Shown here in pieces: positions 5,370 to 21,013 of a stretch of 23,626 nt of DNA. Every line of letters begins with the position of its first letter. Positions within the stretch are counted from its first letter, which is position 1. Made by a program: the position numbers and the translations under genes. Source of the stretch: a virus; the IMG/VR virus record IMGVR_UViG_3300044726_000238, positions 1 through 23,626 of that record. One strand, 5' to 3'. Below the pieces are notes generated by a model. The model saw nothing but the letters and a program-made list of their open reading frames with translations, was not told the DNA's origin and did no database searches.

Positions 5370-5375
5370 ATCGTA
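5370..5375 (-). promoter_or_regulatory. Candidate leaderless -10 hexamer (TACGAT)
   Basis: TACGAT on the minus strand, six bases before the GTG at 5363. The gene is the first leftward one after two rightward genes and a bidirectional terminator, so it needs a promoter of its own; this is the best candidate. No -35 box is apparent. Confidence 0.5.
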
Positions 5376-5422
5376 TGCGAATCGGGCCTGGTAGGGGGAG
5401 GATGACAATCTCACCAGACAAG

Positions 5423-5451
5423 TTGATTACTGAATAGCGGTAGCGTATCAT
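5423..5451 (+). promoter_or_regulatory. Sigma70-type promoter for the rightward two-gene cassette
   Basis: TTGATT (5423-5428) is separated by 17 bases from TATCAT (5446-5451). Transcription would start near 5458 and leave a leader of about 70 bases before the ATG at 5527. It lies in the 163-base divergent gap between the ParB-like gene and the rightward gene. Confidence 0.65.
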
Positions 5452-7127: not shown

Positions 7128-8255
7128 TCAGTTGGTGAGGACTCGGACCACGGCCTGCGGCGTGATGGAGCCCCAGCCCCAAATGGCGTACCAGGCGAGG
7201 GCGTGCTCACGGCCGAAGTCGAGAACGCCGCCGTCACGCAGCTCGACGGGGAGCGACACGGCGTGCCCGAAGGCGTTGTCGCCGATCATCAGACCCTCGT
7301 AGTAGTTGTTCCCTGCCCCAGCGGGGAGGTACTTGACCTGCGTGGTCTCGATGAACACAACGTCGTTGATGCGCCCGATCTCGCCGAGCATGAAGTTGCC
7401 CGGTGCGGCGTACTTCGTGACCTCGATCCACTCGGGAGAGTCACGCAACCGGCGGGCCTGAGCCGGGTGCACGAAGAGCACGTACGTCTCGCCGAGCCGG
7501 GGGATGTTGAGGCTGGCGAGCGCCTGCACAGCGTCCTTCACGGTATGAGGCGTGAGGTAGTACTTGTTGGTGGCAGCGACGGCGCCGGTCACGGCGGCGG
7601 CGTTGGCCGCCTTGGTGCCGGGCTCGTAGATGTTGGTCGAGGCGCCCTGCCACGGGGCGGCGTCGTCGTAGCCGTAGACCTCGGACCCCGGCGACGCCAT
7701 CAGCTGGTTGCGGGCCTGGTAGTCCATGCTCTGCGCCATGTGGCGCCCGAGCAGACGAGAGGCCGACGCCATCACGTCATCGAAGCTGGCGTGGAGCAGC
7801 AGCTCCGAGACCGCCACGGCCGTGCCCTGCTCGGCAACGATGATGCGGAACTGGAACGCCGACAGCGCACGGGTCGACATGCGCACGCCTTCGGTGAGGG
7901 TTGCGCCCTGGTTCTCATCGACGTCGAGATTGTTGTATTTGAGAAAGTTCACCGTGAGGCCGGGAGTGACGCCCAGCTCGGTCTTCTTCACGGCGAACTG
8001 CTCGAACCGCAGGATGGGCATCGCCTGGAACAGGATCTCCCGGGACCAGACCGTCTGGATCGCCGGGGTCATCGTCGTGGAGCCGGTGATCGCCGTCCCC
8101 TGCGGATAGCCCTGGGTCACGAGACCAGACGGCGCTGGCGGCGCCTGCACACCGAGGAAGGCACCACCAACCGGCACGGCGGCCGGGTTGGAACCACCGG
8201 ACACGCCCGAGTACAGGTTGCCAGTACCCGAGATGCCACCTGAGATATCGGGCAT
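7128..8255 (-). CDS. Major capsid protein, N4-gp56-like HK97 fold (375 aa)
   Basis: The protein matches the N4-gp56 family of HK97-fold capsid proteins in length and in several blocks: R-E-I-L-F-Q-A-M-P-I-L-R-F-E-Q-F-A near 72-88, then L-T-E-G-V with A-L-S-A-F-Q-F-R-I near 119-138, E-Q-G-T-A-V-A-V-S-E near 141-150, and L-F-V-H-P-A-Q-A-R-R-L near 260-270. The first 60 residues are rich in G, P, S and V and probably form the N-arm. It builds the icosahedral shell. AGGAG is six bases before the ATG. It follows portal and scaffold in the usual head-gene order and is followed by a bidirectional terminator, so it ends one transcription unit. Confidence 0.87.
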   Translation of the reverse strand: MPDISGGISGTGNLYSGVSGGSNPAAVPVGGAFLGVQAPPAPSGLVTQGYPQGTAITGSTTMTPAIQTVWSREILFQAMPILRFEQFAVKKTELGVTPGLTVNFLKYNNLDVDENQGATLTEGVRMSTRALSAFQFRIIVAEQGTAVAVSELLLHASFDDVMASASRLLGRHMAQSMDYQARNQLMASPGSEVYGYDDAAPWQGASTNIYEPGTKAANAAAVTGAVAATNKYYLTPHTVKDAVQALASLNIPRLGETYVLFVHPAQARRLRDSPEWIEVTKYAAPGNFMLGEIGRINDVVFIETTQVKYLPAGAGNNYYEGLMIGDNAFGHAVSLPVELRDGGVLDFGREHALAWYAIWGWGSITPQAVVRVLTN

Positions 8256-9260: not shown

Positions 9261-10970
9261 CTACTCCGTTGCGCCGACGTTGTTCGGATTGCGGAACTGG
9301 CCCATGCGAGGCATGTAGGCCCGTGTCGTCAGCTCGTTCATCAGGTTCATCGTGTTGGTGTCGAGCATCAGGCCAGGCATGGCGCCAGTGCCACCGGCAT
9401 CAGGTGAACCACCACCGCCGCCGTCACCACTGGCGCCTTCCTGCCCGGTCGCAGCAACCTCTGCTCCGCCGGGGACCATGCCCGTGAGCGCAACGATGGC
9501 GGACTGGATGGCGCTGTTCTGCAGCTGCAGGGCGCCCTGGTCCTTGGAGTCTTCGAGGATCTCGGCGAAGATCTCGGCCAGCTTCTCGTCGGGGAACTCC
9601 TCACCGAGGTCGGCGAGCGCACCACGCTTGGACTCGATGCCGAGCTGCATCTTCTGTGCGATCTCGTTGAGCTTGACGAGGATGTCGACGGGCAGCGGCT
9701 CGGGCCAGTAGACCGATGTCTCGTAGCTGTTGGGGTCAGCAGGGTCGAGCTGGGTGAGCTGGCCCGGCTTGGGCATCACCTCTTCCATCGGATCGAACAT
9801 CATCGACTGCGGTTCCTTCTGGAACAGCGTCAGGAGCACAAGCTCGTTGACCTGTTGGAAGCCGGTCTCGAAGTTGTTCTTCTTCATGCGGAAGCGCTGC
9901 ATCGTCGGTGCGTACTGGATGGCGAGCGCCACGCCCGACGTGTTGCTGATCGGCTGCACCTGACCGAGCGCCTGCTCGGGTACGCCGGTCATCTCGTGCA
10001 TCCCTCGCTTGACGACCTCCATGTAGCCGAGCACGCCATCTAGTTCGTGGATGGACTGCAACGTTTCGACCTTGGCGTCCTTTGGCAGGAACCACGTCTT
10101 CTTGGCGCCCTTCTCCAGCTGCGGCACCTTGGCGCCAGTGATGACGGTGATCGGCGCAGCGTGGTAGTTGACGATGTCGGAGACCTCCATCGCCTTCTCG
10201 TTGTACTCACGGTTGAGCGGGATGATGTCGCCGATGTCGGACAGCCCCCACGGGCTGCCGCTGACTTGGATGTTGGCGATGTAGACGATCGGGATCACGC
10301 CGAGCGGGTTGGGCCGAGCACTGATCAGCTCATCGTTGACGTACTCCTCGATGCCGCTGTCGGTGATCCGCTCGACGTAGGTGTTGACGATGCGGGTGCC
10401 GGTCTGGTCGGTCGAGAAGAAGCGGTACTTCAACTTGAACGAGAGAAGTCGTTGGCGATCGTGCTCGTGCCACTGCGGGAAGCAGTTGGCCGGGTTCAGG
10501 GGGAGGATCCGAACCCGGCCAGGGTGCAGCCGACCGGCCGGGTCGACGTAGGGATCCTCGTAAGCCACCTTGATGAAGAGGTCTCCGGTGACGCTGGCGA
10601 TCTGCCCCATCTCCCACAGCAGCGACGCCTTGCGGTTGTCCTGCTCCCACACCCGCTTCAAGATCGACGGCACGATCGCTGACGTTGCCGGTGGCGACTG
10701 GAACGTGACACCTCGACCAAAGGTGAAGTTCGTGAGGTAGTCGCTCAGTGCCCGTACGTAGTTGAAGGTGAACTGCGGCTCGCCGACCTCACGGCGGTAC
10801 GCCCAGTGGTGACCGAGGTAGTGCGCCCAGTAGAGCGAGTACCTGCTGAGGCGGATGCCGTGGACCTCCATCTCCTCGTTGCTGAGGTCGACCAAGCCCA
10901 GCGGGCTGATCTGGATGGCGAGGTCCGACGTGCCCGCCCGGTAGCTCGGCGGGTAGAAGGCGATGCTCAC
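9261..10970 (-). CDS. Portal protein (569 aa)
   Basis: Length, position and blocks fit an SPP1 gp6-like portal: an N-terminal part with F-N-Y-V-R-A-L-S-D-Y-L-T-N-F-T-F-G near 69-85, a wing-type region with L-L-W-E-M-G-Q-I-A-S-V-T-G-D-L-F-I-K-V near 117-135, W-G-L-S-D-I-G-D-I-I-P-L-N-R-E-Y-N near 243-260, and M-H-E-M-T-G-V-P-E-Q-A-L-G near 328-340. The C-terminal 90 residues are rich in G, A and D and probably disordered. Twelve copies would form the vertex channel for packaging and ejection. The start is GTG at 10970, overlapping the stop of the ADP-ribosyltransferase-like gene as GTGA, so portal translation is coupled to an effector-like gene. Confidence 0.88.
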   Translation of the reverse strand: MSIAFYPPSYRAGTSDLAIQISPLGLVDLSNEEMEVHGIRLSRYSLYWAHYLGHHWAYRREVGEPQFTFNYVRALSDYLTNFTFGRGVTFQSPPATSAIVPSILKRVWEQDNRKASLLWEMGQIASVTGDLFIKVAYEDPYVDPAGRLHPGRVRILPLNPANCFPQWHEHDRQRLLSFKLKYRFFSTDQTGTRIVNTYVERITDSGIEEYVNDELISARPNPLGVIPIVYIANIQVSGSPWGLSDIGDIIPLNREYNEKAMEVSDIVNYHAAPITVITGAKVPQLEKGAKKTWFLPKDAKVETLQSIHELDGVLGYMEVVKRGMHEMTGVPEQALGQVQPISNTSGVALAIQYAPTMQRFRMKKNNFETGFQQVNELVLLTLFQKEPQSMMFDPMEEVMPKPGQLTQLDPADPNSYETSVYWPEPLPVDILVKLNEIAQKMQLGIESKRGALADLGEEFPDEKLAEIFAEILEDSKDQGALQLQNSAIQSAIVALTGMVPGGAEVAATGQEGASGDGGGGGSPDAGGTGAMPGLMLDTNTMNLMNELTTRAYMPRMGQFRNPNNVGATE

Positions 10971-11281
10971 GGACCAACCCTACGTAGTACACGGAACCCA
11001 ACGGGGTCTGCGGCGACGTTGGCTCTGCCCCACACGTCGACCGGCTTGCTCATGTGCTCGACGGCGAAGACGTGCTCGGTGGCTGGGTCGTCGGGGTTAC
11101 GGCGGTTGTGCCGACGCACCTTGGCCCGTGCGATCTGGCTGGCCTCGTCCATCCGTGGCGTCGCCCACGCCGTCGGGAACTCGGTGTGCTCGGTGTCGGT
11201 GGGGTTGATGATGTCGCCCGGCTCGAACGGGTGAGCGGTGCCATGGAACAGCTCACGGTTGAGGTGCTCAACAGCGGTCAT
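10967..11281 (-). CDS. ADP-ribosyltransferase-like protein, Arr-type, with DH tag (104 aa)
   Basis: The ATG at 11281-11279 overlaps the upstream stop as ATGA and gives MTAVEHLNRELFHGTAHPFE, joining the DH-type tag directly to the H-G-T strand (L-F-H-G-T at 11-15) of the Arr-type ADP-ribosyltransferase fold. P-G-D-I-I at 21-25, F-P-T-A-W-A-T with D-E-A-S-Q-I-A at 35-51, V-F-A-V-E near 71-75 and F-R-V-L-R-R-V-G at the end follow the order of the rifampin ADP-ribosyltransferase blocks. It is shorter than Arr (about 140 aa). It is translationally coupled to the portal gene. NAD+ use is inferred from the fold; the target is unknown, and antibiotic modification is not implied by context. Confidence 0.75.
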   Translation of the reverse strand: MTAVEHLNRELFHGTAHPFEPGDIINPTDTEHTEFPTAWATPRMDEASQIARAKVRRHNRRNPDDPATEHVFAVEHMSKPVDVWGRANVAADPVGFRVLRRVGP

Positions 11282-12357
11282 CTCTTCGGCTTCAAGATGA
11301 AGTTGTTGGCCGGGCGGTGCGTGAGGTGCTTCCAGTCCTCGTCCGAGATCTCGGGCGGCTGCTCCTTCTCGAACAGCGTCGGCTGGCGCCACTGCTCGCC
11401 GAGGTGCTTCTGCGCACCCATCGCCTCGGCCAACGGCTGACCGCTGGCCCGCTCGAAGTTCTCGCCGAACGAAGGACGCTTGTGCATGCCCTTGTAGGCG
11501 GCGACGTCAGCGTAGGTGGAAGGGTCGTTGCGCCGGAACACCGTGTGCTTGGCGGAGTAGCCCTCGGCGAACCCCTCCACCGCCGGGAGGTCGTGACGAG
11601 ACAGGGTGACGAACCGCCGCCGGTCGGCCTCGAAGTCGACGTTGTGCCCGAACTCGTGGAGCACGGTGTGCTCGATCGAAGCTCGTGTGCGCTCGGGGCC
11701 GCCGCCAGGGTGGAGCTTGATCTCACGAGCGAGCGGCGGGCCTTCCAGCGAGGAGAACTTGGTGCGGTGCTGCCCGGCGGCCCTCGCCATCGGCTGCACC
11801 TTGATGTCGGGCGTGGCGCCGACGATGTCCTCCAGCGGCGCCGTCGAGCGGGCGAGGATGTCGACCACGGCGGCACGGGTCGCCGCTACTTGGTTCTTGC
11901 GCTTACCACCGACCTGACCGATCGCCGGATACACGCCGCCTGTGACGGTTCCCTCGAAGGGCACGGCCTTGCTACCGCCGGGGTACGAGAACGACGACGA
12001 GACGCCGACCTTGGGGATCGCAGCGGCGATGGCGTCACGTCGCTCGGGGGAGTAGCCGTGCGCAGCCCAGCGGTGCTCAGGCGAGGGCTTCATCGCTCGG
12101 GGATCCCACAGCGTGCCTTGGCTCGCCCGCCCCGGTCGCAACGGCTTGGGGTTCATCGGCGGGAGGTCAACGAGGTTGACGCCCATCCGTACGGCGTGCT
12201 CCTGGGCCCGGTTGACGGTGTGCAGGTGGGCGTCGACAGCGGAGTCCGTGTCGCCCGGTGCAGCAGCGGCCGAAGTCAGGTCACGCACACGGTCGACACG
12301 CTCACGAGCTACCCGGATCTCTCCAGCTGCTCCCGGTGGCTCGGCCACCTTGGGCAT
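11278..12357 (-). CDS. Zincin-type metallopeptidase-like protein (359 aa)
   Basis: Residues 233-241 read L-H-E-F-G-H-N-V-D, the HExxH zinc motif (H234, E235, H238), and V-E-G-F-A-E-G-Y at 260-267 offers E261 or E265 as third ligand, which fits a gluzincin-like layout. The N-terminal 220 residues are unlike known peptidase prodomains that I can name; they include a helical segment (1-60) and Q-G-T-L-W-D-P near 80-86. The C-terminus has Q-P-T-L-F-E-K-E. Unlike the other metallopeptidase-like protein (14134-15402) it lacks the DH tag at its N-terminus. ATGA overlaps couple it on both sides. It may cut a virion, host envelope or host intracellular protein; substrate unknown. Confidence 0.75.
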   Translation of the reverse strand: MPKVAEPPGAAGEIRVARERVDRVRDLTSAAAAPGDTDSAVDAHLHTVNRAQEHAVRMGVNLVDLPPMNPKPLRPGRASQGTLWDPRAMKPSPEHRWAAHGYSPERRDAIAAAIPKVGVSSSFSYPGGSKAVPFEGTVTGGVYPAIGQVGGKRKNQVAATRAAVVDILARSTAPLEDIVGATPDIKVQPMARAAGQHRTKFSSLEGPPLAREIKLHPGGGPERTRASIEHTVLHEFGHNVDFEADRRRFVTLSRHDLPAVEGFAEGYSAKHTVFRRNDPSTYADVAAYKGMHKRPSFGENFERASGQPLAEAMGAQKHLGEQWRQPTLFEKEQPPEISDEDWKHLTHRPANNFILKPKR

Positions 12358-12821
12358 CAGAGGATTGTGCCTCGGCTACGAGCGTTGGCGATCCCCGACG
12401 CCGTCTGTGGGCCCGGCGTGGCCATCGTCGGATCCCGGTACTCGTAGCTCAGCTTGTCCGGGTGCATCCGGTTCGACTGGCCGTTGCTGTCTTGGTACAG
12501 CGTGTTGGCGGCCGCCACCGAGTCGGTCACCGTGAGCGTCACGTTGGTCGAGGTGCCGGTGCCGTCGGTGTTGGTCGTGCGGACACGACCCTGGCGAACA
12601 CCAGCGCCGAGGTTGACGTTGAACGGCACAGCGGTGCTGATGCCAGCACCGGTCGCACCGACGGTCTTCACGGCGCTGACGGTGTCGAACTGGAAGTCAC
12701 GAGCCGAGGCGACGGGCGTGTGCGTGGCCGTGTCGGCGAGCTGCACCGGGGGAGTGAGGTTGGCCAGCGTCTGCGTCACGGTGTTGGGCGTGATCGTGAG
12801 CGTGGGAGCGGGGGTCGTCAT
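12357..12821 (-). CDS. Hypothetical Thr/Val-rich beta-type protein (154 aa)
   Basis: The first 110 residues are rich in T, V, A and N with an alternating pattern (T-L-T-I-T-P-N-T-V-T-Q-T-L), which suggests an all-beta, immunoglobulin-like or decoration-type domain. The last 45 residues are more polar, with Y-E-Y-R-D-P-T. There is no signal peptide or catalytic motif. The ATG at 12821 lacks a Shine-Dalgarno site but has TACGCT six bases upstream. It overlaps the metallopeptidase-like gene as ATGA. It could be a capsid decoration or head-fibre protein; this is inferred from composition only. Confidence 0.6.
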   Translation of the reverse strand: MTTPAPTLTITPNTVTQTLANLTPPVQLADTATHTPVASARDFQFDTVSAVKTVGATGAGISTAVPFNVNLGAGVRQGRVRTTNTDGTGTSTNVTLTVTDSVAAANTLYQDSNGQSNRMHPDKLSYEYRDPTMATPGPQTASGIANARSRGTIL

Positions 12822-12827
12822 GGCCCC

Positions 12828-12833
12828 AGCGTA
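12828..12833 (-). promoter_or_regulatory. Candidate leaderless -10 hexamer (TACGCT)
   Basis: TACGCT on the minus strand, six bases before the ATG at 12821, in the 39-base gap after the DH-tagged 76-aa gene. The same hexamer with the same spacing precedes the genes starting at 17963 and 19160. Confidence 0.55.
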
Positions 12834-12860
12834 GATCTGGCCCTGCTGGAGGCGGAGCTG

Positions 12861-13091
12861 TCAGCGGGCCCAGGACGGGTAGTGCGCCTCATCCAACTGC
12901 GGCCCCTCGATGTAGGGGTTGCTCGCCCGATGGCGCTCGAAATGGATGCTGTCGGGACCGACAGCTCGCCGTGCGTTGGCGACGGCCTCCTCGAAGCTCT
13001 TGCCCTCGATCGCCGTTCCACGAAGTAGGTGGCCGACGAGAGCGGCATGGGTCAACGCTCTGTCAGGTGACATGTGCTCATGCTTGGCCAT
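12861..13091 (-). CDS. Small DH-tagged protein of unknown function (76 aa)
   Basis: I start at ATG 13091-13089 and not further upstream, because this gives MAKHEHMSPDRALTH, which matches the DH signature (E-H-M-S-P-D-R compared with D-H-L-S-P-D-Q). The upstream in-frame part reads through a hairpin-rich gap and looks non-coding. After the tag come helical residues 13-45 (H-A-A-L-V-G-H-L-L-R-G, E-E-A-V-A-N-A-R-R-A-V) and an H/R/P-rich tail. No enzyme motif is seen. TACGGT lies six bases before the start and there is no clear Shine-Dalgarno site. It could be the bare carrier domain of the tagged family or a degraded member. Confidence 0.6.
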   Translation of the reverse strand: MAKHEHMSPDRALTHAALVGHLLRGTAIEGKSFEEAVANARRAVGPDSIHFERHRASNPYIEGPQLDEAHYPSWAR

Positions 13092-13097
13092 GCGCCA

Positions 13098-13103
13098 ACC
13101 GTA
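13098..13103 (-). promoter_or_regulatory. Candidate leaderless -10 hexamer (TACGGT)
   Basis: TACGGT on the minus strand, six bases before the ATG at 13091. It follows a 413-base stretch with hairpins and little coding signal, where a promoter would be expected. Confidence 0.45.
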
Positions 13104-13185
13104 CTTGCCACGGAGTTGGGGGAGGGTACGTCGCCACGTTGAGAGACTCACGGGCCTCTCGTACTTCTCAGCGGCCGTGATCCGC

Positions 13186-13356
13186 CTACCCGATGCCCTC
13201 GCCCGCCTCTGGATCCAACACAGCCTCCTCCGTTGGTAGCCAACCGAGGTGTCCCGCAGCAACAAGACCCGCCGGAGCGGGGCGGTCACTGCGTCGCATC
13301 CACTGAGGGCGACCACTAGCGAGCGTCTGAGCTTCACCAGCGCTAAGCGAGATCAC
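13186..13356 (-). CDS. Doubtful small protein (56 aa)
   Basis: A GTG at 13356-13354 stands nine bases after GGGAGGG and opens a 56-codon frame ending in TAG. The peptide starts MISLSAGEAQTLASGRPQW and ends in an acidic tail (E-A-G-E-G-I-G). Against it: many codons end in T or A, unlike the neighbouring genes, and no family is recognised. I list it because of the good ribosome site; non-coding DNA is the main alternative. Confidence 0.25.
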   Translation of the reverse strand: MISLSAGEAQTLASGRPQWMRRSDRPAPAGLVAAGHLGWLPTEEAVLDPEAGEGIG

Positions 13357-13504: not shown

Positions 13505-14134
13505 CTACAACTTGCCGCCGAGCATCACCGTGGCGGCGTTCTGGATCTTGACCGCCTTCAAGGCCGGGCCGTAGTCGGGCGTGTCGCCGAGGTCGTCATG
13601 CTCGCCACGAGCTACCGCCTTGCGCACCGAGCCGGAGGCGAACGGCTTGTCGGGATCCTCCGGCCGATCGAGGTCAGCCGTCGCCATGTAACGAGCACGT
13701 TGGTGCCACGGCTCATGAACGGCGAGGATCTGACTCGGCGGTAGGTCACCACGCAACGTCACTGTCGACTTGTTCTGCTCCAGACGAGCGACGTGCTCCT
13801 CGGCGGGCCGCCGGAGGTAGTTCTCCCCGATGTCGAGCTGTCCGCCACGTTCCGGGTCGGCGTAGCCCTCGACCACCGGAGCGTTGTCGAGGAGGTCGTT
13901 GCCAGGGCGGCCAGCGGTGGCAAAGACGAAGCTCTCGTCGCCTACATGGTCACGGTTCGCCGACTGCTTCAAGCCAGTGGCCTTGATGCTCTCGATCGCC
14001 TCGGGCCGGGTGTAGTGGTTGATCCGCACCATCCCCCCAGGGATCGGCTGGGTACCGAACTCGGGCGGGATCGAGGCAGGGTCGCCGACGAAGCGGGCGT
14101 GCTGCAGCTTGCTGACGTGATCGAGGGCGGACAT
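13505..14134 (-). CDS. DH-tagged protein with ADP-ribosyltransferase-like features (209 aa)
   Basis: The ATG overlaps the upstream stop as ATGA and gives MSALDHVSKLQHARF, a clear member of the tagged set. Residues 35-55 read M-V-R-I-N-H-Y-T-R-P-E-A-I-E-S-I-K-A-T-G-L, which resembles the first strand and helix of ADP-ribosyltransferase-like phage proteins (H-Y-T then I-x-x-x-G-L), followed by S-F-V-F-A-T at 68-73. Later blocks include L-P-P-S-Q-I-L-A-V-H-E-P-W-H near 131-144. A catalytic glutamate is not obvious. I call the fold with moderate confidence; substrate and activity are unknown. A seven-base-arm hairpin spans the stop codon (13493-13509). Confidence 0.6.
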   Translation of the reverse strand: MSALDHVSKLQHARFVGDPASIPPEFGTQPIPGGMVRINHYTRPEAIESIKATGLKQSANRDHVGDESFVFATAGRPGNDLLDNAPVVEGYADPERGGQLDIGENYLRRPAEEHVARLEQNKSTVTLRGDLPPSQILAVHEPWHQRARYMATADLDRPEDPDKPFASGSVRKAVARGEHDDLGDTPDYGPALKAVKIQNAATVMLGGKL

Positions 14135-15402
14135 CAGTGAGGCTCGATTCTCCCCGCATAGAAGGGCTCGCCGCCCAACGTGTTGTCAACCTCGGCGACG
14201 GTACGTGGGCGCTCGCCGAACTGGTTGTGAGCCAGCTCGGGCTCACCCCACAGCGACTCTTGGATCTCCTGACCCTGCTTGATCAAGCGACGGTCCTGGT
14301 GTCGGCGAACGGCCTGGGCAGCGACGTCGGTCATCGCCCGCTTCGGCCCCTTCTCTCCGCCGATCGTCAGGTTCTCCCAGGCCGCTCGGGCGTGCTCGGA
14401 GTGCTGATGGAGCATGGCGATGGTCGCATCGGTCGCAGACCCCGGGGTGCCATGGTAGGAAGCACCGCCGACGGTGCTGGCCTTCGGCGAAGGCTGGTAG
14501 CGAGGGTGCTCTCCGGTGGCGTCGTAGTGCGCCCGCACCCCGGCATAGAGCACACGGTCGGGGTCGTCCCAGGTTGCGTTCGCTCCGGCCTCGACCTCGT
14601 ACTGCGAGGAGTAGCCGAACTGCCGGTCGCTGATGTGGCTGTACGGCTTGGGCGCAGGGACTCCTTCGTCGTCTGGCATGTCCTCGAAGCCGGGAGCTGA
14701 CTTCATCTGCTCCCAGGTCTTGAGGTGACGGGCGTGCTCCTCGGCGATCCTGACGTGAGCCGAGTGCTGCCCGCCGTAGCGATCGACGTAGGCGTCGGCG
14801 AGCCCTTCCTTCAACGGGTCGGGAGACCAGCCCTGTTGGTTCCGGTAGAACTTGGTCGGGTTGCCACGCTCACGCTCGTTGGGCACCGTCTCGTAGTGGT
14901 GAGCGTGACCCATCTCGTGGATCAACGTCTCAGTGGCACTCTTCCTGAGACCAGCACCCTCGACGGCGATCAGCGGGACTCCGCTGTTGGTGTAGTGGCG
15001 GTAGAACCCCGACGCACCGGGCTCCCTCTCGTCGGCAACGTCGATCGGCGATTGGCCGCCGCTCCAATGCGCCGTCGGCACACGGGACTGAGCGAGGCTG
15101 CCGATCGCTGTCTCGACGCCCTTTGCTCGTTCCCCCGTCGGACGAAGCCGTGAGAGGTTGGCCGCTTCGTCGTACCCACCACCGTCGGGGTGAATCTTGC
15201 CCTGCGCCCCGAACAAGGTTCCCCGTGCGGGGATCTCGCCCTGGTCGAACAGCACGCCCTGACCGGTCACCGTCTCGTCGTCCCTCCAGTGCGCCTCGTC
15301 ACGAGACGGGTGGAAGGTCGGGTCGTTGGGCGCCTTGCGGGTGTCGCCTTGACGACGAGGCACGATCTTCGTCTGCTCACCGAGGTGGTCAGTGGCGGCC
15401 AC
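14134..15402 (-). CDS. DH-tagged zincin-type metallopeptidase-like protein (422 aa)
   Basis: The start is GTG at 15402-15400 with GGAGGT five bases upstream, giving MAATDHLGEQTKIVP with the DH tag. Residues 161-168 read I-H-E-M-G-H-A-H (zinc ligands H162 and H166, catalytic E163), and K-E-G-L-A-D-A-Y near 198-205 offers E199 as third ligand. The region before it (40-155) contains Q-G-V-L-F-D-Q and R-G-T-L-F-G; the 359-aa metallopeptidase-like protein has a similar Q-G-T-L-W block, so the two may be distant relatives. The C-terminal half (220-422) is H-, A- and E-rich with no motif I know. It is the largest tagged protein. Proteolysis is inferred; the target is unknown. Confidence 0.76.
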   Translation of the reverse strand: MAATDHLGEQTKIVPRRQGDTRKAPNDPTFHPSRDEAHWRDDETVTGQGVLFDQGEIPARGTLFGAQGKIHPDGGGYDEAANLSRLRPTGERAKGVETAIGSLAQSRVPTAHWSGGQSPIDVADEREPGASGFYRHYTNSGVPLIAVEGAGLRKSATETLIHEMGHAHHYETVPNERERGNPTKFYRNQQGWSPDPLKEGLADAYVDRYGGQHSAHVRIAEEHARHLKTWEQMKSAPGFEDMPDDEGVPAPKPYSHISDRQFGYSSQYEVEAGANATWDDPDRVLYAGVRAHYDATGEHPRYQPSPKASTVGGASYHGTPGSATDATIAMLHQHSEHARAAWENLTIGGEKGPKRAMTDVAAQAVRRHQDRRLIKQGQEIQESLWGEPELAHNQFGERPRTVAEVDNTLGGEPFYAGRIEPH

Positions 15403-15405
15403 GAA

Positions 15406-15516
15406 CTACCTCCGCAGCAGGATCACGACGAGGATGATGACGAGCACGAGCAGGATGAAGCCACCGCCGATGTAGATGCCCTCGGCGAGCACAGCGGAGA
15501 TGCTGGCTGGGATCAC
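15406..15516 (-). CDS. Small single-span membrane protein (36 aa), possible holin partner
   Basis: GTG at 15516-15514 overlaps the stop of the upstream two-span gene as GTGA. The peptide starts MIPASISAVLAEGIYIGG and has one strongly hydrophobic segment of about 20 residues (16-34, mostly L, I, V) ending in L-L-R-R, so the C-terminus is probably cytoplasmic. Its stop overlaps the Shine-Dalgarno site of the 422-aa gene. Pairing with a two-span small membrane protein is the usual look of holin or holin-antiholin genes, but no endolysin is in this window, so the call stays tentative. Confidence 0.55.
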   Translation of the reverse strand: MIPASISAVLAEGIYIGGGFILLVLVIILVVILLRR

Positions 15517-15734
15517 GGTGTGGCACCCGCCGTCGGTAAGGCGAGCAGCCCGAGAGCGATGCAGGCGAGACCGGCGACCACGAGGATCCAGTGGTAGCCC
15601 CACGCCCTCTCGCCCGTGGCGATCAGTCGCACCACCTCGATGACGAACAGGATGAACGCCACCAAGAACATGATCTCGGCGAAGTCCGGGCTGTTCATGA
15701 TCTCGGCGACCATGGCGGTTGCGAGTGTCTTCAT
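15513..15734 (-). CDS. Two-span small membrane protein (73 aa), holin candidate
   Basis: The protein has two hydrophobic segments, about residues 20-39 (I-M-F-L-V-A-F-I-L-F-V-I-E-V-V) and 48-68 (H-W-I-L-V-V-A-G-L-A-C-I-A-L-G-L-L-A-L), with a short basic-acidic loop (R-L-I-A-T-G-E-R-A-W). The ATG is preceded by AGAGGT. Length and two-span topology fit class II holins, and the next gene is a one-span protein translated by GTGA overlap. A membrane role in virion assembly or superinfection control is the alternative. Confidence 0.6.
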   Translation of the reverse strand: MKTLATAMVAEIMNSPDFAEIMFLVAFILFVIEVVRLIATGERAWGYHWILVVAGLACIALGLLALPTAGATP

Positions 15735-15736
15735 TG

Positions 15737-15997
15737 CTACCTCTTTCCCTTGAACCGTGGATTGGGGCCAGCCTTGATCCAGAGCGCACGCTCGAAGCTC
15801 ATGCCCTCTTCCTGCTCACGAGTCGGCCCGTCGTAGTCGTCGTCGTCGTCGGGGTGGTATCCGACCTTGCGGATCATCCGACCACTGATCCGCCCAGTTG
15901 ACCACCCGGTGCCGGTCGTGGTGACGCCACTACCGGGCTCATCGAGCAGCATGTCTTGGGAGGCGAGACCAGATATCTGTGTGCTCTTCTTGGCCAT
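15737..15997 (-). CDS. Hypothetical protein with a poly-Asp stretch (86 aa)
   Basis: The ATG overlaps the upstream stop as ATGA. The peptide starts MAKKSTQISGLASQDMLLDE; residues 50-56 are an aspartate run (D-D-D-D-D-Y-D) and the C-terminus is basic (N-P-R-F-K-G-K-R). No domain or membrane segment is seen. It lies between a 53-aa gene and the two-span membrane protein and ends three bases before that start. Probably a small virion or assembly protein; function unknown. Confidence 0.55.
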   Translation of the reverse strand: MAKKSTQISGLASQDMLLDEPGSGVTTTGTGWSTGRISGRMIRKVGYHPDDDDDYDGPTREQEEGMSFERALWIKAGPNPRFKGKR

Positions 15998-16158
15998 CAG
16001 TCTTCTCCCTTGGTGCTGAGGTTCTCCTGGCGCAGCGCCTGCCGAGCGAAGTATCGGTTCAGAGCGATACCCGGCTTGGGCTGGTCGGTACCGATGCCCA
16101 TGACGTAGTTGAGGGCGCTGTCGTTGGGATCCTGTGGGCGGTCGATCTGCTTCGGCAT
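15997..16158 (-). CDS. Small hypothetical protein (53 aa)
   Basis: This frame is defined by ATG at 16158-16156 and a stop that overlaps the next start as ATGA. AGAGG stands four bases before the start, a weak ribosome site. The peptide starts MPKQIDRPQDPNDSALNYVM and has a basic helix near residues 32-45 (A-L-N-R-Y-F-A-R-Q-A-L-R-Q). Its 5' end directly adjoins the promoter of the rightward 83-aa gene, so the two are divergent. No family recognised. Confidence 0.6.
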   Translation of the reverse strand: MPKQIDRPQDPNDSALNYVMGIGTDQPKPGIALNRYFARQALRQENLSTKGED

Positions 16159-16169
16159 GGCGCCTCTAG

Positions 16170-16198
16170 TTGTCCTGAGTCATGCAATGATGTACAAT
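16170..16198 (+). promoter_or_regulatory. Promoter of the rightward 83-aa gene (leaderless)
   Basis: TTGTCC (16170-16175), 17 bases, TACAAT (16193-16198), then six bases to the ATG at 16205. Transcription would start at or next to the A of ATG, and no Shine-Dalgarno site exists, so the message is probably leaderless. This is the only member of the TAnnnT set that also has a -35 box. Confidence 0.7.
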
Positions 16199-16200
16199 GA
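16185..16200 (+). repeat. CAATGA direct repeat overlapping the -10 box
   Basis: CAATGA occurs at 16185-16190 and 16195-16200, one helical turn (10 bases) apart, the second covering part of the -10 box. This is the layout of a repressor operator, but two six-base copies may be chance. Confidence 0.35.
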
Positions 16201-16204
16201 CTGC

Positions 16205-16456
16205 ATGGTCACATTGCCTGATGAAGTAGCCGTTGCCGTGCTCGATCTCGCTGAGGCGATGACCAACCCGACATCCCCCGAGCAGATCGCCTTCAACCTG
16301 CGGGTGGCGGCCTACCTGCTGCCGAAGCTGGAGGGCGCCTTCGTCACGGCCGGTGTCGATCCCGGCGACGTCGAGCGCCCCGAGATCCCCCTGCTCGTGG
16401 TCGGATCGAAGGCCGGTACGTGGCGGGACGGTGTGTGGGAGCCCGACGAGAACTGA
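16205..16456 (+). CDS. Moron-like rightward gene, small hypothetical protein (83 aa)
   Basis: The ATG at 16205 is chosen because a full promoter ends six bases before it; a longer in-frame start at 16109 would run antisense to the 53-aa gene. The peptide starts MVTLPDEVAVAVLDLAEAM. Residues 1-50 are predicted helical (L-D-L-A-E-A-M, R-V-A-A-Y-L-L-P-K-L), and the end is W-R-D-G-V-W-E-P-D-E-N. There is no membrane span or catalytic motif. The gene runs against the late block, has its own promoter and ends one base from the stop of a convergent gene. That is the layout of a moron expressed independently, for example in superinfection control; the function is not known. Confidence 0.72.
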   Translation: MVTLPDEVAVAVLDLAEAMTNPTSPEQIAFNLRVAAYLLPKLEGAFVTAGVDPGDVERPEIPLLVVGSKAGTWRDGVWEPDEN

Positions 16457-16457
16457 G

Positions 16458-17474
16458 CTACTCCCAGTCACTGATCGCTCCGGCGAACTGGCTGTAGGCG
16501 AGGTGCTGGTGTCGGGACAGGTCGTGGGCGGCGGGGTGGCCGGTGTGGGGGTCGAAGTACGGCTGGCCGAGACGGTTCGGCCCGACGGTACGGGTGCCAC
16601 CCTGTCGCTCGATCCCCTGCTTGACGTGCTCCCAGGAGATCGCCTGCGCCGCCGACGGGTGGATCCCGAAGTTGGACGCCGCCTGGATGACCACGTTGCG
16701 GGACTCCTCGTAGCGAGAGGTGCCACGCTTCAACGCCGCCGACGAGATCCCTCGACCGGTCTCCCACGGGCGCACCCGATTGGTCATCGTGTCGAAGGCA
16801 CGACCATCGATCGTGGCGAACCGAGCGTCCGACGGGTCGTGGATGTTGTGCATGAAGTTGTGCGTCTTCGGCCCACCACGGGGGTCCATCACGTCCTCGG
16901 GATCCTCCCCGGCGATGATCCGCCCGGCCCGCTGCAGCGAGCCGATGCCCGCCGAGCCGATCGACATCCCACGCACCACTTCACGAGCTGCGCCTCGGCT
17001 GGCTACCGCCCTGGCGTGCTCGCCCTTCTGCGCCCCCATGATCGTGTCCCAGCCGCCGGAGTCGATCCCCCGCAGCTCCTTGAAGGCGTGGATGTTGCTC
17101 CGCTCCCAGTCCATGTTCGGGCTGACGGCGGCGACGATCCCGGCCCCGGCGAGCATCTTGTCCGGTGACCCACCGAGGAAGTGGCCGCCCCGGATCCCCT
17201 TGCGCACCGCCTCGTGCACCTTGGGGTACCACTCCGAGCCCGAAGCGTGCTCGCCCTTGCTGGCCGAGGCGATCGAGTGGGTGAAGTTCGTGAGCGCCAT
17301 TTCGAACACGGCCGGGTCGTGGAAGTTGGGCATCCCCCCGAAGCGGATGGCCGTGTCGGGGTTGCCCGCCTCGGTCATCTTCGGGCGCCCCTTCTTGTCG
17401 ATGATGTGGTAGCGCTCGCCTTCACCACCGAGCTGAGGGAAGTTCTCCCGACCCTTGCTGCTTCTGATCGGCAC
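16458..17474 (-). CDS. DUF7178-like phage protein (338 aa)
   Basis: The start is GTG at 17474-17472 with GAGGAGA just upstream. Conserved-looking blocks are A-G-I-V-A-A-V-S-P-N-M-D-W-E-R-S-N near 110-126, K-T-H-N-F-M-H-N-I near 202-210, T-I-D-G-R-A-F-D near 220-227, and A-A-Q-A-I-S-W-E-H-V-K near 272-282. I recall these V-A-A-L-S-P, N-F..N-I and T-I-D-x-x-A blocks from a phage family listed as DUF7178, but cannot verify this. The order of helices and the conserved D would allow a nucleic-acid enzyme, yet no activity is established. It lacks the DH tag. It lies between the moron and a membrane protein. Confidence 0.6.
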   Translation of the reverse strand: MPIRSSKGRENFPQLGGEGERYHIIDKKGRPKMTEAGNPDTAIRFGGMPNFHDPAVFEMALTNFTHSIASASKGEHASGSEWYPKVHEAVRKGIRGGHFLGGSPDKMLAGAGIVAAVSPNMDWERSNIHAFKELRGIDSGGWDTIMGAQKGEHARAVASRGAAREVVRGMSIGSAGIGSLQRAGRIIAGEDPEDVMDPRGGPKTHNFMHNIHDPSDARFATIDGRAFDTMTNRVRPWETGRGISSAALKRGTSRYEESRNVVIQAASNFGIHPSAAQAISWEHVKQGIERQGGTRTVGPNRLGQPYFDPHTGHPAAHDLSRHQHLAYSQFAGAISDWE

Positions 17475-17483
17475 GTCGTCTCC

Positions 17484-17963
17484 TCAGTAGTAGAGCGCAG
17501 CTCGGGCGCCGAGGAACCACCCAGCGACGTCCCGAGCTGTCGAGTAGGGCGCTGACCGGTCCTCGATCCAGCGCAGGATGCCGTAGTAGGCGAGAGCGGT
17601 ACCAACCAAGCAGAGTGCGGGCGTGGCGCCGCCGACGAAGGCGCTAACCAAGCACCCGACCGCCGTGGCGACGGCGAGCGGCACGAGCGTGCGTCGGAGG
17701 GACGGCGCTAGCTCGCTTTCACCGTCCTCTCCGTACCGTGGTCGGACAGAGACCCCGAGGAGGAAGCCCAGCTGCGGGCGAGCGCACTGAGCGAGACGGG
17801 CGCAGACGTACCACGCCACAGCGATCGAGAACGTGGTGGCGACCCCCACGAAGGAGGACAACGGGAAGCCGCCACCAAGGCCAATCAGCGCCAGCACACT
17901 CACCCCGACGACGAGTGGCGCAACGATGCTGCGGACGACGCTGATTCGCCAGTTGGTGTCCAC
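17484..17963 (-). CDS. Four-span membrane protein (159 aa)
   Basis: Hydrophobic segments lie at about residues 10-29, 34-56, 92-110 and 113-131, with a charged loop at 73-91 (R-P-R-Y-G-E-D-G-E-S-E). The C-terminal tail is mixed. No signal peptidase site or known motif is seen. The start is GTG at 17963, without a Shine-Dalgarno site and with TACGCT six bases upstream inside a hairpin. Membrane proteins in late blocks can act in lysis, lysis inhibition or superinfection exclusion; I cannot tell which applies. Confidence 0.62.
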   Translation of the reverse strand: MDTNWRISVVRSIVAPLVVGVSVLALIGLGGGFPLSSFVGVATTFSIAVAWYVCARLAQCARPQLGFLLGVSVRPRYGEDGESELAPSLRRTLVPLAVATAVGCLVSAFVGGATPALCLVGTALAYYGILRWIEDRSAPYSTARDVAGWFLGARAALYY

Positions 17964-17966
17964 ATG

Positions 17967-17984
17967 CCCAGCGTAAGCGCTGGG
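17967..17984 (-). promoter_or_regulatory. Hairpin containing a TACGCT hexamer
   Basis: Seven-base perfect arms (17967-17973 and 17978-17984) with a four-base loop, between the 51-aa gene's stop and the membrane protein's start. In a read-through message it could act as terminator; in DNA the same bases hold the candidate -10 hexamer. Confidence 0.45.
17970..17975 (-). promoter_or_regulatory. Candidate leaderless -10 hexamer (TACGCT)
   Basis: TACGCT on the minus strand, six bases before the GTG at 17963. No ribosome site is present for this gene, so the hexamer is the only initiation signal seen. Confidence 0.5.
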
Positions 17985-18002
17985 GTCAGAGCACCGGGTT
18001 GA

Positions 18003-18158
18003 TCAGTAGCGCCCGGCCTGGGCGCCTTCTTGGAACGCTGCGTTCATCGAGTAGCCGACGTGGGCGTACGGCTCGAAGCCCTGGTACGGCTCATCGATCG
18101 GCTGGCTGGCCGCCTCTTCGCCTGGGGCGAGCTGCCCGGTGTAGTTCTGGTCTGCCAT
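18003..18158 (-). CDS. Small hypothetical protein (51 aa)
   Basis: ATG at 18158-18156 follows AAGGAG at seven bases, a good ribosome site. The peptide starts MADQNYTGQLAPGEEAASQP and is rich in Y, G, A and E, with P-Y-Q-G-F-E-P-Y near 24-31. No hydrophobic span. A hairpin (17967-17984) follows the stop. Small Y/G/A-rich proteins next to head genes are often minor virion components, but no homology is recognised. Confidence 0.62.
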   Translation of the reverse strand: MADQNYTGQLAPGEEAASQPIDEPYQGFEPYAHVGYSMNAAFQEGAQAGRY

Positions 18159-18170
18159 GGCTGGCTCCTT

Positions 18171-18752
18171 CTAGCGAGTGCGGTTCGAGGGGAGGATGAT
18201 GGACGGTCGGCCGCCGGGCGGCTTGAAGCCGGGGGCGAACGTGACCTGAGGGATCGTGCTGCCGCCTATCTGAGACGACGCTCCGGCGGCGTTGCCGAGA
18301 GTCGACACTGCTTCTCGTGCGTTGGCCTGAGTCGCCACGTCGACCGGGTTGACGGACGATGGTGCGGTACGGGCGGTGCGCACCTGGCGCTCCGTCAGCG
18401 GCTCAGCCTCACCGGCCTCGGTCATCGTCTCGGGCGTACCCATCTGCACCGCCTCCTGCATCCGACGGGCCCACAGGTTGCGGGGCGGGCCCGCCTTGCT
18501 GGCGAGGTAGCCCGAGATCGGCCTGTTGCCGAGGATGTCGTGGACGTCGTGCTGAGCGCCGGTCCCCTTGGTCATGCCCTCGATGTTCCCGGCGATGCGG
18601 TTCATCTCTCCCATGATCGACGGGGGAGACCACTGTCGAGCACGGTTGCGCCAGAGCACCTCTTGGTTGATCGGCGCCTGCGTCGAGAGCGGGCTGACGT
18701 AGGGGGTGTACGTCGTCCAGGTCGGTACGGCGCTCTTGTAGGACTTGGACAC
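18171..18752 (-). CDS. Hypothetical late protein (193 aa)
   Basis: The start is GTG at 18752, close behind the upstream stop at 18759, with neither a ribosome site nor a TAnnnT hexamer, so it probably relies on coupling. The peptide starts MSKSYKSAVPTWTTYTPYV. Residues 35-100 are polar and helical (R-N-R-A-R-Q-W, M-G-E-M-N-R-I-A-G-N-I), 100-150 are T/A/E-rich and the C-terminus is G/P-rich (F-K-P-P-G-G-R-P-S). The composition looks like an internal or minor virion protein. No function is recognised. Confidence 0.6.
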   Translation of the reverse strand: MSKSYKSAVPTWTTYTPYVSPLSTQAPINQEVLWRNRARQWSPPSIMGEMNRIAGNIEGMTKGTGAQHDVHDILGNRPISGYLASKAGPPRNLWARRMQEAVQMGTPETMTEAGEAEPLTERQVRTARTAPSSVNPVDVATQANAREAVSTLGNAAGASSQIGGSTIPQVTFAPGFKPPGGRPSIILPSNRTR

Positions 18753-18758
18753 CGCTGC

Positions 18759-19160
18759 TCAGTCGTCAATGACGGTGGGAGCCCGGCGGTAGGCGTAGCC
18801 ACCGGACACCACGATCATCTCGTAGGACGGTGGCGTCTGGCCGACCCCGGCCCCGGCGACGAAGTCGCTGAGCATCGCTGGCGCCTCGATCCAGCTGGCG
18901 CTGCCGACGTGGGCACGCTCACGCATCGTCTCGTCGGCGTGCTTGTACACGGCGTCGGGGTTGTTGTAGTTGATCCGCCCCGGCATGGAGGTGGGATCGA
19001 TGAACGCTCCCCGCACGAAGTCGTTGGGCACGTCCGTGTCGGTGCCGATGCCCTCCTCGAACCGCATGTCCCCACGGTTGCCCGCAGGGTTGGCGGCGAA
19101 GGCAAGCTCGAACGCCTGGGGGACACGCTCGGGGTAGAGCGGGTTCGGTGCAATCGTCAT
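18759..19160 (-). CDS. Hypothetical late protein (133 aa)
   Basis: ATG at 19160 has TACGCT six bases upstream and no Shine-Dalgarno site. The peptide starts MTIAPNPLYPERVPQAFELA. It has a soluble mixed composition, with R-G-D-M-R-F-E-E-G-I-G near 29-39 and a final V-S-G-G-Y-A-Y-R-R-A-P. It is the first gene after the terminase in transcription order. A head or packaging accessory role fits the position, but no motif supports it. Confidence 0.6.
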   Translation of the reverse strand: MTIAPNPLYPERVPQAFELAFAANPAGNRGDMRFEEGIGTDTDVPNDFVRGAFIDPTSMPGRINYNNPDAVYKHADETMRERAHVGSASWIEAPAMLSDFVAGAGVGQTPPSYEMIVVSGGYAYRRAPTVIDD

Positions 19161-19166
19161 GGTCTC

Positions 19167-19172
19167 AGCGTA
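19167..19172 (-). promoter_or_regulatory. Candidate leaderless -10 hexamer (TACGCT)
   Basis: TACGCT on the minus strand, six bases before the ATG at 19160, in the 24-base gap after the terminase stop. No -35 box is seen at 17 bases. Confidence 0.55.
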
Positions 19173-19184
19173 GTTCGGGGGCTA

Positions 19185-20771
19185 CTACCGGCGGCGCCCA
19201 TGGAACGGCGAGTCGATCTGAGTGATCACGCCGAAGTCCTCGTCCTCGGTGACGGCGCAAGCGAGCGCCGCCGAGTCGCAGTAGTCATCGAAGGCGTTCA
19301 CGACCTCGGGCGCCTCAGCGAGCATGTACTTGCCTGAGTACACCGTCTCCAGCTCCTCGAACTGCAGCCGGAAGCGCTTGTAGGCACGCAGCTTCTTGGT
19401 ACGGCGACCGGCCGGGTAGATGAACATCCGGCGCTCGACCAGAGCCTTCAACCGCTTCCACCGCTTCTCCTGGTCGGCCGGGTTGGAGCCGAGCGGCCGC
19501 ACGTCGATCCACGGCATCTCGTGGGCGATGCGCTCGGCGATCGGGCCGCCGAGCCCCTGGGCGTCCACGCCGATGATCGCAACGTTGTAGTGCGACAGGA
19601 ACTCGATGATCCTGGCGTACTGCTCCTCCCACGGCTTGTTGTGGATCTCCAGCCAGTTGAGGACACGGTGCTGGCAGTAGCCGTAGGGGTCGGGGTTGTT
19701 CCAGTCGACCCAGCAGACGGTGACGACGGTGGAGTCCTTGGTACGGGCGGGGTCGATCCCGGCGACGCAGCGGTCAACGACGAACCACGGCACAACATCC
19801 ATGTTCGGATCGCCGAGGCCGTCGAGCACCTCCTCGGTCACGAACATCCCCGACTCCAGCAGCCACTGGCAGGCGTAGCTCAGACGGAACTCATCGCTGT
19901 CCTCGCCGAGCCGTTCCTTCTCTCCGGCGATGTACTTCTTGTAGAAGTTGTTGAACTTGATGACCACCTTCCAGTCGTATTGGAAGTGGTCCTGCCGGGC
20001 GCCCCGCCGGGTCATCCGGCGCTTGTTGGCCTGGATGGCGTCGTAGAAGAAGTTGCGCTTCCTTGAACAGGTGCCGGTGAACACCTTGGTGCCGTTGGTC
20101 GACGCCAGCATCGGGAAGATCGACTTGCGGGCCTTCTCCGAGTCGCAGTCCTGGCTCTCATCGAGGAGGACGAAGTGGTACGTCTTCGACTCGATCTGCG
20201 CCTTGGGGTTGGCGGTCTGCATGCGGCAGATCGATCCGCTGTTGATCAGCTTGACAACCTTGACCTTCGACCCCTCCTTCTGCGGCACGTCCTCGATGTC
20301 CTCGTCGGCGAGGATCGAGCGGCCGTGCTTGGAGGTGAGGATGTCGTGGATCTTCGACCAGATCGTGAACGCCTGCTCTTCGGTGGGGGCGAACACGCCG
20401 ACCCAAAAGCCACGGGAGAACTGAGGGAACAGGTCGGGGTACGCCTTGGCCAGCCGGGGCAGCAGCACCATCAGCGTCGCCAGCACCGCAGCGAGCGTGG
20501 TCGACTTGCCCGACTGGCGGCACCACAGGGCGGTGATCTCGGCGCCGTCGTTGAGCAACACCGACTCGATCGCCCGGTACGCCAGATCCTTCTCGTACGG
20601 GTAGAGGTCCAGCTCGGTGAGCGCCTCCATGAAGACCATGCAGCGCATCACCAGCTCGTGGATGAACTCGGCGCTCTCGGGGTCGACCTCTACGAACTCC
20701 TCGCCGGGCTCGTCGGGATCTGGTTCCTCGAAGTAGCGCTCTTCGAGGATCTCACGAACGGCGGCTGTCAC
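19185..20771 (-). CDS. terL: Terminase large subunit (528 aa)
   Basis: This is the ATP-driven DNA-packaging motor. The ATPase half has Walker A C-R-Q-S-G-K-S at 84-90 and Walker B V-L-L-D-E at 201-205, followed by a C-motif-like F-T-G-T at 231-234. The nuclease half has the RNase H-like acidic residues in A-G-I-D-P-A-R (337-343, D340), G-V-D-A-Q-G-L-G-G (401-409, D403) and D-D-Y-C-D-S-A-A-L-A (495-504, D499). Length is normal. The start is GTG at 20771 with TAGCCT six bases upstream and no good Shine-Dalgarno site; the start codon also lies in a hairpin arm (20770-20805). No classical small subunit is adjacent; the HTH protein at 21943-22386 is the best candidate. Confidence 0.93.
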   Translation of the reverse strand: MTAAVREILEERYFEEPDPDEPGEEFVEVDPESAEFIHELVMRCMVFMEALTELDLYPYEKDLAYRAIESVLLNDGAEITALWCRQSGKSTTLAAVLATLMVLLPRLAKAYPDLFPQFSRGFWVGVFAPTEEQAFTIWSKIHDILTSKHGRSILADEDIEDVPQKEGSKVKVVKLINSGSICRMQTANPKAQIESKTYHFVLLDESQDCDSEKARKSIFPMLASTNGTKVFTGTCSRKRNFFYDAIQANKRRMTRRGARQDHFQYDWKVVIKFNNFYKKYIAGEKERLGEDSDEFRLSYACQWLLESGMFVTEEVLDGLGDPNMDVVPWFVVDRCVAGIDPARTKDSTVVTVCWVDWNNPDPYGYCQHRVLNWLEIHNKPWEEQYARIIEFLSHYNVAIIGVDAQGLGGPIAERIAHEMPWIDVRPLGSNPADQEKRWKRLKALVERRMFIYPAGRRTKKLRAYKRFRLQFEELETVYSGKYMLAEAPEVVNAFDDYCDSAALACAVTEDEDFGVITQIDSPFHGRRR

Positions 20772-20805
20772 CCCGCCAGGCTACGTCAGGCGTACTTGGC
20801 GGGGT
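20770..20805 (-). promoter_or_regulatory. Hairpin that can hide the terminase start codon
   Basis: Nine-base perfect arms (20770-20778 and 20797-20805) with an 18-base loop. The arms cover the GTG start of terL and the end of the 75-aa gene. In a read-through message the start codon would be paired; in a leaderless message starting at GTG the upstream arm is absent. Confidence 0.45.
20778..20783 (-). promoter_or_regulatory. Candidate leaderless -10 hexamer (TAGCCT) for terL
   Basis: TAGCCT on the minus strand, six bases before the GTG at 20771. The octamer TAGCCTGG is the same as before the 286-aa gene at the other end of the window. Confidence 0.55.
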
Positions 20806-21013
20806 CGAAGAGCTGGCCCTGGCGAGGGTCAGGCACCTTCGGGGTCCGGTGGTCGTTGAGGAACTCCGTCAGGCGCATGGCGTCCTGGTAGCTCATCGTG
20901 ATCTTCACGTCGTCGCCACTGGCCTCGGCCTTCATGTGGACGGCGGGGGTCACGGTACGGACGGCAGCTGCTAGCTCGTTGACGATCACGGGTACATTCA
21001 TAGAAGGAATCAT
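20786..21013 (-). CDS. Small hypothetical protein upstream of terL (75 aa)
   Basis: The start is the ATG at 21013 because AAGGA lies six bases upstream; the second ATG four codons later lacks one. The peptide starts MIPSMNVPVIVNELAAAVRT, continues with a beta-type stretch (V-K-I-T-M-S-Y) and a helix (Q-D-A-M-R-L-T-E-F-L-N-D-H-R), and ends in Q-G-Q-L-F-D-P-A-K-Y-A. It has the size of a small DNA-binding or packaging accessory. No HTH is evident, so I do not call it the small terminase. Confidence 0.62.
   Translation of the reverse strand: MIPSMNVPVIVNELAAAVRTVTPAVHMKAEASGDDVKITMSYQDAMRLTEFLNDHRTPKVPDPRQGQLFDPAKYA

Follow-up and report, generated by a model that had tools for sequence, protein, structure and literature searches.

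Comparison across related viral contigs supports the view that a small acidic-protein gene and the DUF7178-family gene converging on it form a 3'-to-3' unit whose two members are present, absent and exchanged together. The unit lies in IMG/VR virus record IMGVR_UViG_3300044726_000238 (positions 1 to 23,626), and this whole 23,626-nucleotide stretch is called the window below. The best explanation, to which we give a probability of about 0.45, would be that the small protein serves the predicted glycosylase as a dedicated partner, which binds and inhibits the late DUF7178 enzyme and is made ahead of late transcription. The argument draws on these features of the window:

16170-16175, plus strand: -35-like hexamer TTGTCC, read in the sequence
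16193-16198, plus strand: -10 hexamer TACAAT, following TTGTCC after a 17-base spacer and preceding the ATG at 16205 by six bases (GACTGC); leaderless geometry
16185-16190 and 16195-16200 (span 16185-16200), plus strand: CAATGA direct repeat with a period of 10
16205-16456, plus strand: small acidic protein gene P0001, 83 codons plus TGA; pI about 4.1; predicted helices at residues 6-19 and 25-49
16458-17474, minus strand: convergent DUF7178-family gene, 338 aa; pI 9.3; predicted HhH-GPD DNA-glycosylase fold
19185-20771, minus strand: terminase large subunit (PHROG 2, E 8.8e-29), late block
9261-10970, minus strand: portal protein (PHROG 64, E 5.3e-41; Pfam SPP1_portal, E 2.1e-25), late block
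7128-8255, minus strand: major head protein, late block, given as context

The original prediction had read TTGTCC-17-TACAAT-6-ATG, an 83-codon frame and a convergent stop one base away, and all of this proved exact on re-reading. Because the terminase, portal and major head protein genes are all on the minus strand, the small plus-strand gene opposes the presumed late block, to whose strand the DUF7178 gene also belongs; the latter has a GTG start with a Shine-Dalgarno-like GAGGAG upstream, and the two stops are one base apart. Two further plus-strand genes oppose the late block, at 5527-6384 and 6471-7061; the former has an AGGAGGT Shine-Dalgarno sequence and, upstream at 5423-5451, a promoter-like site, and the best match of the two is merely a weak RecT-like PHROG (E 0.0049). 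A candidate late-block promoter, TTGTGA-17-TATGAT-7-ATG (21037-20999, minus strand), was read just upstream of the terminase gene, inside the ORF at 20786-21013, where the start would be the fifth codon. We also observed that several otherwise unlike late-block proteins on the minus strand (4085-4540, 4544-5182, 4872-5414, 10967-11392, 13505-14134 and 14134-15402) have in common, close to the N-terminus, a short motif around [D/E]-H-[L/V], which in 4544-5182 was spotted by eye and is internal to that ORF; this is possibly a common targeting tag, or else a chance likeness. The protein of 4085-4540 matches the PHROG 'ParB C-terminal domain'. Searches of cultured phages for DNA-level relatives of window positions 15000-20000 found none, and a pattern scan of genome contigs for prophage relatives returned 47 stretches and 0 relatives.

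The first scan for the small protein gave only one near-identical contig and locus L003, whose homologue (46% identity) is in the same place and convergent with the same neighbour. The pairing became apparent from a profile scan for the DUF7178 neighbour, which retrieved 32 contigs; a small ORF lies at the DUF7178 3' end in 29 of them (23/26 without six close copies), always convergent (29/29), with 50-83 codons on the opposite strand and an end near that of DUF7178. In 23 loci the two ends range from an overlap of up to 68 nt through to a gap of 8. In L034 the open frame at the pair position reaches the contig end with its start out of view, the contig ending 54 bases above the first start codon of that frame; in L048 there is no small ORF and the next gene begins at the DUF7178 stop, and the AT-rich, distant L051 has no small ORF beside DUF7178. 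Searches from the small family reached 13 distinct contigs, and DUF7178 is present in 13/13, a count to be read with the fact that the queries were peptides of pair members and could miss an unlinked distant small gene. The locus L040 has an in-frame stop within its DUF7178 frame (2956-3741), and its small partner is intact. Among 50,697 cultured-phage records, four small-protein queries yielded four weak matches (E 0.5 or worse) in all, two of the queries matching nothing, and two DUF7178 queries matched 237 and 313 records, the 313 being mostly from actinobacteriophages. DUF7178 thus occurs in cultured phages where no small partner was found, indicating that the enzyme can do without one. 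The gene had been proposed to be a moron, a single gene with its own promoter; 'single' does not describe a gene that is tied to DUF7178 in 29/32 contigs and accompanied by it in every contig reached from its own family. The expected sporadic presence among relatives was seen, with absence from L011, L012 and L014, but the gene comes and goes with DUF7178 rather than singly. The linkage is strict, but the genes are convergent and do not form the single operon that defines type II toxin-antitoxin pairs.

The pair occurs in two genomic neighbourhoods and appears to have a history separate from that of its backbones. A terminase, portal or 133-aa gene of the window type lies near it in 18/32 contigs, and none of these is present in the available flanks of the other 14/32; seven loci of this second neighbourhood were examined, and several share another neighbour set. 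Neither gene is in the records of the nearest distinct backbones, L014 (terminase 90%, a fragment), L011 (86%) and L012 (83%). The corresponding region of L012 and L011 holds different long ORFs, at 11270-12724 (484 aa) and 11803-13233 (476 aa), respectively, and is possibly an exchange site. The terminase tree joins the window to L011 and L012 (100/100), neither of which has either gene, and branches with strong support in it require at least two changes of the first pair type; in the DUF7178 tree that type is one clade (96/100), the window standing with the other carriers. Moreover, the window-type backbones L041, L044, L046, L047 and L049 carry pairs nearer the second type, an affinity that is clear for the first four and marginal for the enzyme of L049. 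The DUF7178 of L047 groups with the second backbone at 99/94, those of L041, L044 and L046 fall outside the first clade, and that of L049, on a long branch, is placed uncertainly. The pair may have been lost in L011 and L012 rather than originally absent, and such loss, or recombination of the terminase, would explain part of the conflict between the trees. Nevertheless, the simplest account of the trees and the distribution is that the small gene and DUF7178 appear to move together, and this patchy presence and separate history of the small gene are moron-like, as predicted. Two side observations on the backbones are that the portal match of L010 (7502-9125) and the capsid match of L007 (10046-11173) are each split in two pieces, for which frame shifts, inserts or assembly errors are the alternatives.

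The separate history of the pair, and the finding that L011 and L012 have another ORF (about 480 aa) at the matching place, would also be expected of a moron or cargo unit whose small protein targets the host or other phages, by exclusion or anti-defence, and is linked to DUF7178 only through a common mobile cassette. We consider this rather unlikely, as the near-obligate pairing, the convergence in 29/29 and the two neighbourhoods exceed what cassette sharing predicts.

The original prediction also held that the small gene has a complete promoter of its own and is expressed independently. By consensus counting alone this promoter is unremarkable and is weak evidence: one consensus match was found in 5 kb where 0.3 was expected, and the whole window has four such sites where about 2.0 were expected. 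A count only about twice chance would suit a non-functional gene, namely a frame and a promoter that both arose by chance in GC-rich DNA, and the single near-identical contig gives no independent evidence to the contrary. Such a reading is close to untenable, and is already contradicted by sequence conservation: homologues 30-48% identical occupy this position in DNA of about 45-69% GC, and the -10 geometry is shared by most of them.

It is this conservation of the -10 geometry across loci that makes the promoter credible. We defined a -10-like box as a hexamer with A second, T last and at least 4/6 matches, 5-8 nt upstream of the start, and used 23 non-redundant loci after removing six close copies (L022, L027, L029, L036, L042 and L050); L020 is a near-copy of the window, and 22 of the 23 loci are independent of the window. 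The box precedes the chosen small-gene start in 16/23 loci, against a background of 2.5% among the 13,027 start codons of these loci, although these loci are related and not independent, so that a binomial probability for 16/23 overstates the case. With a stricter box (at least 5/6) the figures were 6/23 and 0.3% of the 13,027 starts, and a weaker TAnnnT box (3/6) was found in four more of the 23 loci. The DUF7178 starts served as a control, with a -10-like box in 0/27 and Shine-Dalgarno-like words in 12/27. Since the choice of small-gene starts had followed the N-terminal pattern in the aligned proteins and was made partly with sight of the boxes, we scanned each of the 141 in-frame starts in the small ORFs, which reduces the choice bias: the box precedes 15/22 chosen starts reached by the scan (the chosen start of L023 was outside it) and 1/119 other in-frame starts. 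In L026, L038 and L040 a GGAG-type Shine-Dalgarno-like word occurs without a box, and L035 and L046 have both. The box is kept across loci of about 45-69% GC. Thus, the small gene is probably transcribed independently of the late block, in agreement with what had been proposed. The -10 geometry of this promoter is conserved, but the -35 is not, reaching at least 4/6 in 5 of the 20 loci having any box. Two loci do have the 17-bp spacing of the window, L003 (= L031) with TTGTAT-17-TATCCT-6-GTG and L007 (= L024) with TTGCAA-17-TACATT-6-ATG. In the window, TACAAT-6-ATG has no Shine-Dalgarno-like word found upstream, and the gene would accordingly count as leaderless by sequence. Leaderless genes are put at about 14% in mycobacteria (PMC7148126), which indicates that some hosts, at least, can use a start of this kind.

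Control by a repressor, which had been suggested from the CAATGA repeat over the -10 region, found no support. A 6-mer repeat at a period of 9-11 occurs in 3.0% of 40-bp windows of the sequence and in 1.1% of segment shuffles; CAATGA is repeated in 0 of the other 22 loci, two of which have a different 6-mer repeat at a period of 11. The repeat is probably a chance occurrence, and we rejected it as an operator on account of its absence from the other 22 loci and a frequency not far from chance. Expression in lysogens, as is often found for morons, is likewise unsupported, as a search of 11 related, partial records found a tyrosine integrase in 1/11 and a serine recombinase in 0/11.

The partner of the small gene in the window belongs to Pfam DUF7178 (PF23802, E 1.5e-19), and structure prediction suggests that this family is likely an HhH-GPD DNA glycosylase. 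The model was built from 24 sequences, the DUF7178 of L040 being left out of the enzyme alignment, and reached pLDDT 85.3 and pTM 0.82. Foldseek gave no match for it at E 0.001. In a second-look structure alignment, 28 of the best 30 entries (Z 5.6-9.5) carried the title of a DNA glycosylase or an endonuclease III homologue, with many mouse OGG1 entries among them, and the other two were a queuine-salvage protein (DUF2419) and an unnamed Pyrococcus protein. The best match was MjOgg (3knt_D; Z 9.5, rmsd 4.2, 179 aligned), a Z that is below the level the alignment tool calls safe for helical proteins and that arrangement alone can reach; however, the uniform glycosylase list and the drop to Z 2.7 after the best 30 argue against a mere helical arrangement. 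The sole PDB sequence match to the DUF7178 profile was AGOG (1xqo, E 0.13), and NCBIfam showed nothing common to more than one member. Lys203 and Asp223 are invariant in 24/24 sequences and presumably stand where the EndoIII and Ogg2 motifs put the hairpin lysine and the catalytic aspartate. Some of the cultured-phage relatives were annotated as glycosylases by their depositors. Among five cultured phages examined, no structural gene was found among the annotated neighbours of the DUF7178 relative; in four of the five all annotated neighbours are co-oriented, and Synechococcus phage S-CRES3 has its next annotated gene about 0.8 kb away on the opposite strand. These contexts fit a partner that is needed only where DUF7178 lies in a late cluster, but they equally show that the enzyme need not be harmful.

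The small protein of the window is predicted to be a helical hairpin, with pLDDT 93-98 over the first 50 residues. The 24 aligned small proteins matched no known family (best Pfam E 0.03, best PHROGs E 0.019), PADLOC gave no match for six proteins tested, and no sequence match to a known glycosylase inhibitor was found in Pfam, PHROGs or PDB sequences. Fold comparison of the model gave scattered two-helix matches only (best Z 5.9), with no known inhibitor among the matches listed. Designed helical-repeat and TPR proteins led the PDB sequence matches to the small-family profiles (E down to 5.8e-05), and we read these as helix resemblance and not as homology. The pI is at most 5.2 in 26/29 small proteins and 8.0 or more in 23/24 enzymes. 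Such charge complementarity suits any complex, including one in which the small protein assists the glycosylase as a positive cofactor or specificity subunit, for example by directing it to phage DNA ends or the capsid; the same linkage and co-exchange of both genes would follow. This possibility seems unlikely to us, because one would expect a single operon to encode both enzyme and subunit, whereas the opposite strand, the separate promoter and antisense late transcription would hinder a matched supply, and the four queries found no such gene in the cultured phages with DUF7178 relatives.

The small protein diverges faster than its DUF7178 partner: within the first type, small proteins average 40% identity and enzymes 49%, and between types the averages are 15% and 39%. 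Fast divergence with kept pairing is often shown by inhibitor or immunity proteins, a resemblance that falls short of proof. The two small-protein types align with an hhalign probability of 68, which is only suggestive of common ancestry, and the membership of the L047 small protein is weakly supported. The pN/pS ratios of the small gene in three pairs were 0.07, 0.27 and 0.59, and the close trio L022, L023 and L029 gave 0.55-0.91 on very few changes. The values from the three pairs also speak against an RNA-level unit, in which transcription of the small gene into the DUF7178 3' end limits expression through antisense RNA or polymerase collision, the protein being secondary. The spacing of the ORF ends, with one base between them in the window and up to 68 nt of overlap at other loci, and a search of window positions 14000-19000 that found no terminator-like site, would suit such a device. 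It is nonetheless quite improbable, since an antisense device needs no conserved protein, yet the protein frame is kept and homologous across diverse loci.

Thus, we return to the small protein as a dedicated partner and putative inhibitor of the glycosylase. The points counted for a partner are the linkage (29/32 and 13/13), the two neighbourhoods, the exchange, the promoter, the enzyme fold and the opposite charges. Counted against this reading are the lack of a sequence match to a known inhibitor, the search of cultured phages that found no partner, the enzyme's lack of a significant Foldseek match and its modest Z, the poorly conserved -35, the three loci having a Shine-Dalgarno-like word but no box, the pN/pS of the close trio, and the chance that L011 and L012 lost the pair; acidic small proteins are, moreover, common in phages. 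Inhibition, its timing and an antisense switch are what we infer from this arrangement. A host-type -10 box would give a message whose first base is that of the start codon or lies no more than about two bases from it and, as host RNA polymerase suffices for a promoter of this kind, the small protein could be present soon after phage DNA entry, before the late enzyme. It would then bind and restrain the enzyme, much as uracil-DNA glycosylase is restrained by Ugi and p56, and thereby spare the DNA early attack. Late transcription crossing the unit from the opposite side would be antisense to the small gene, and may thereby lower the supply of the small protein and release the enzyme. It is conceivable, although we hold it doubtful, that these parts constitute a new phage-borne system, in which a late glycosylase is paired with a fast-evolving small inhibitor fired on entry and convergent late transcription is the switch. 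The glycosylase of such a two-gene system would possibly enter with the virion, or have the DNA of the host or of a rival as its target.

Several known systems resemble parts of this proposal. In type II toxin-antitoxin and effector-immunity pairs, a damaging enzyme and a small partner are adjacent and move together. Unlike in those pairs, the genes here are convergent, have apparently separate promoters, and the enzyme lies in the phage late block. The uracil-DNA glycosylase inhibitors Ugi, p56 and SAUGI are acidic and, to our knowledge, are not paired with their target gene. Their targets are Ung-family enzymes, whereas the target proposed here is HhH-GPD-like and its gene adjoins that of the small protein; the latter matches none of these inhibitors in sequence, and blocking is a proposal made by analogy. 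Like the proposed small protein, they are described as small virus-encoded glycosylase blockers with strong sequence plasticity (PMC10303552, PMC3794593). Brig1 is a bacterial anti-phage DNA glycosylase acting on glucosylated bases of T4 (PMC11078745); like the putative DUF7178 glycosylase, it would represent such an enzyme in phage-host conflict, and the accessible text of that source describes no small convergent partner. Base-excision restriction enzymes are a further nearest idea (PMC10273834). Ogg2 (MjOgg), AGOG and EndoIII share the predicted fold with DUF7178, whose invariant Lys and Asp presumably stand where glycosylase motifs would place the catalytic pair, but sequence similarity is barely detectable and DUF7178 has an extra N-terminal part. 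Phage morons have their own promoter, are set against the late block and are patchily present. The small gene is like them in its promoter and patchiness, but is part of a two-gene convergent unit. Our literature search found no paper naming DUF7178, and among the listed titles and opening lines of abstracts on glycosylase inhibitors, leaderless genes in morons and mycobacteriophages, glycosylase antitoxins and virion glycosylases, none describes a glycosylase with a convergent small gene.

What looked like an isolated orphan frame is thereby seen as one member of a recurring two-gene unit, for which a biochemical hypothesis can be tested, and Pfam DUF7178 gains a structural lead. If inhibition were true, the small proteins would be an inhibitor family for another glycosylase superfamily, and the phages carrying the unit would be policing their own base-excision enzyme.
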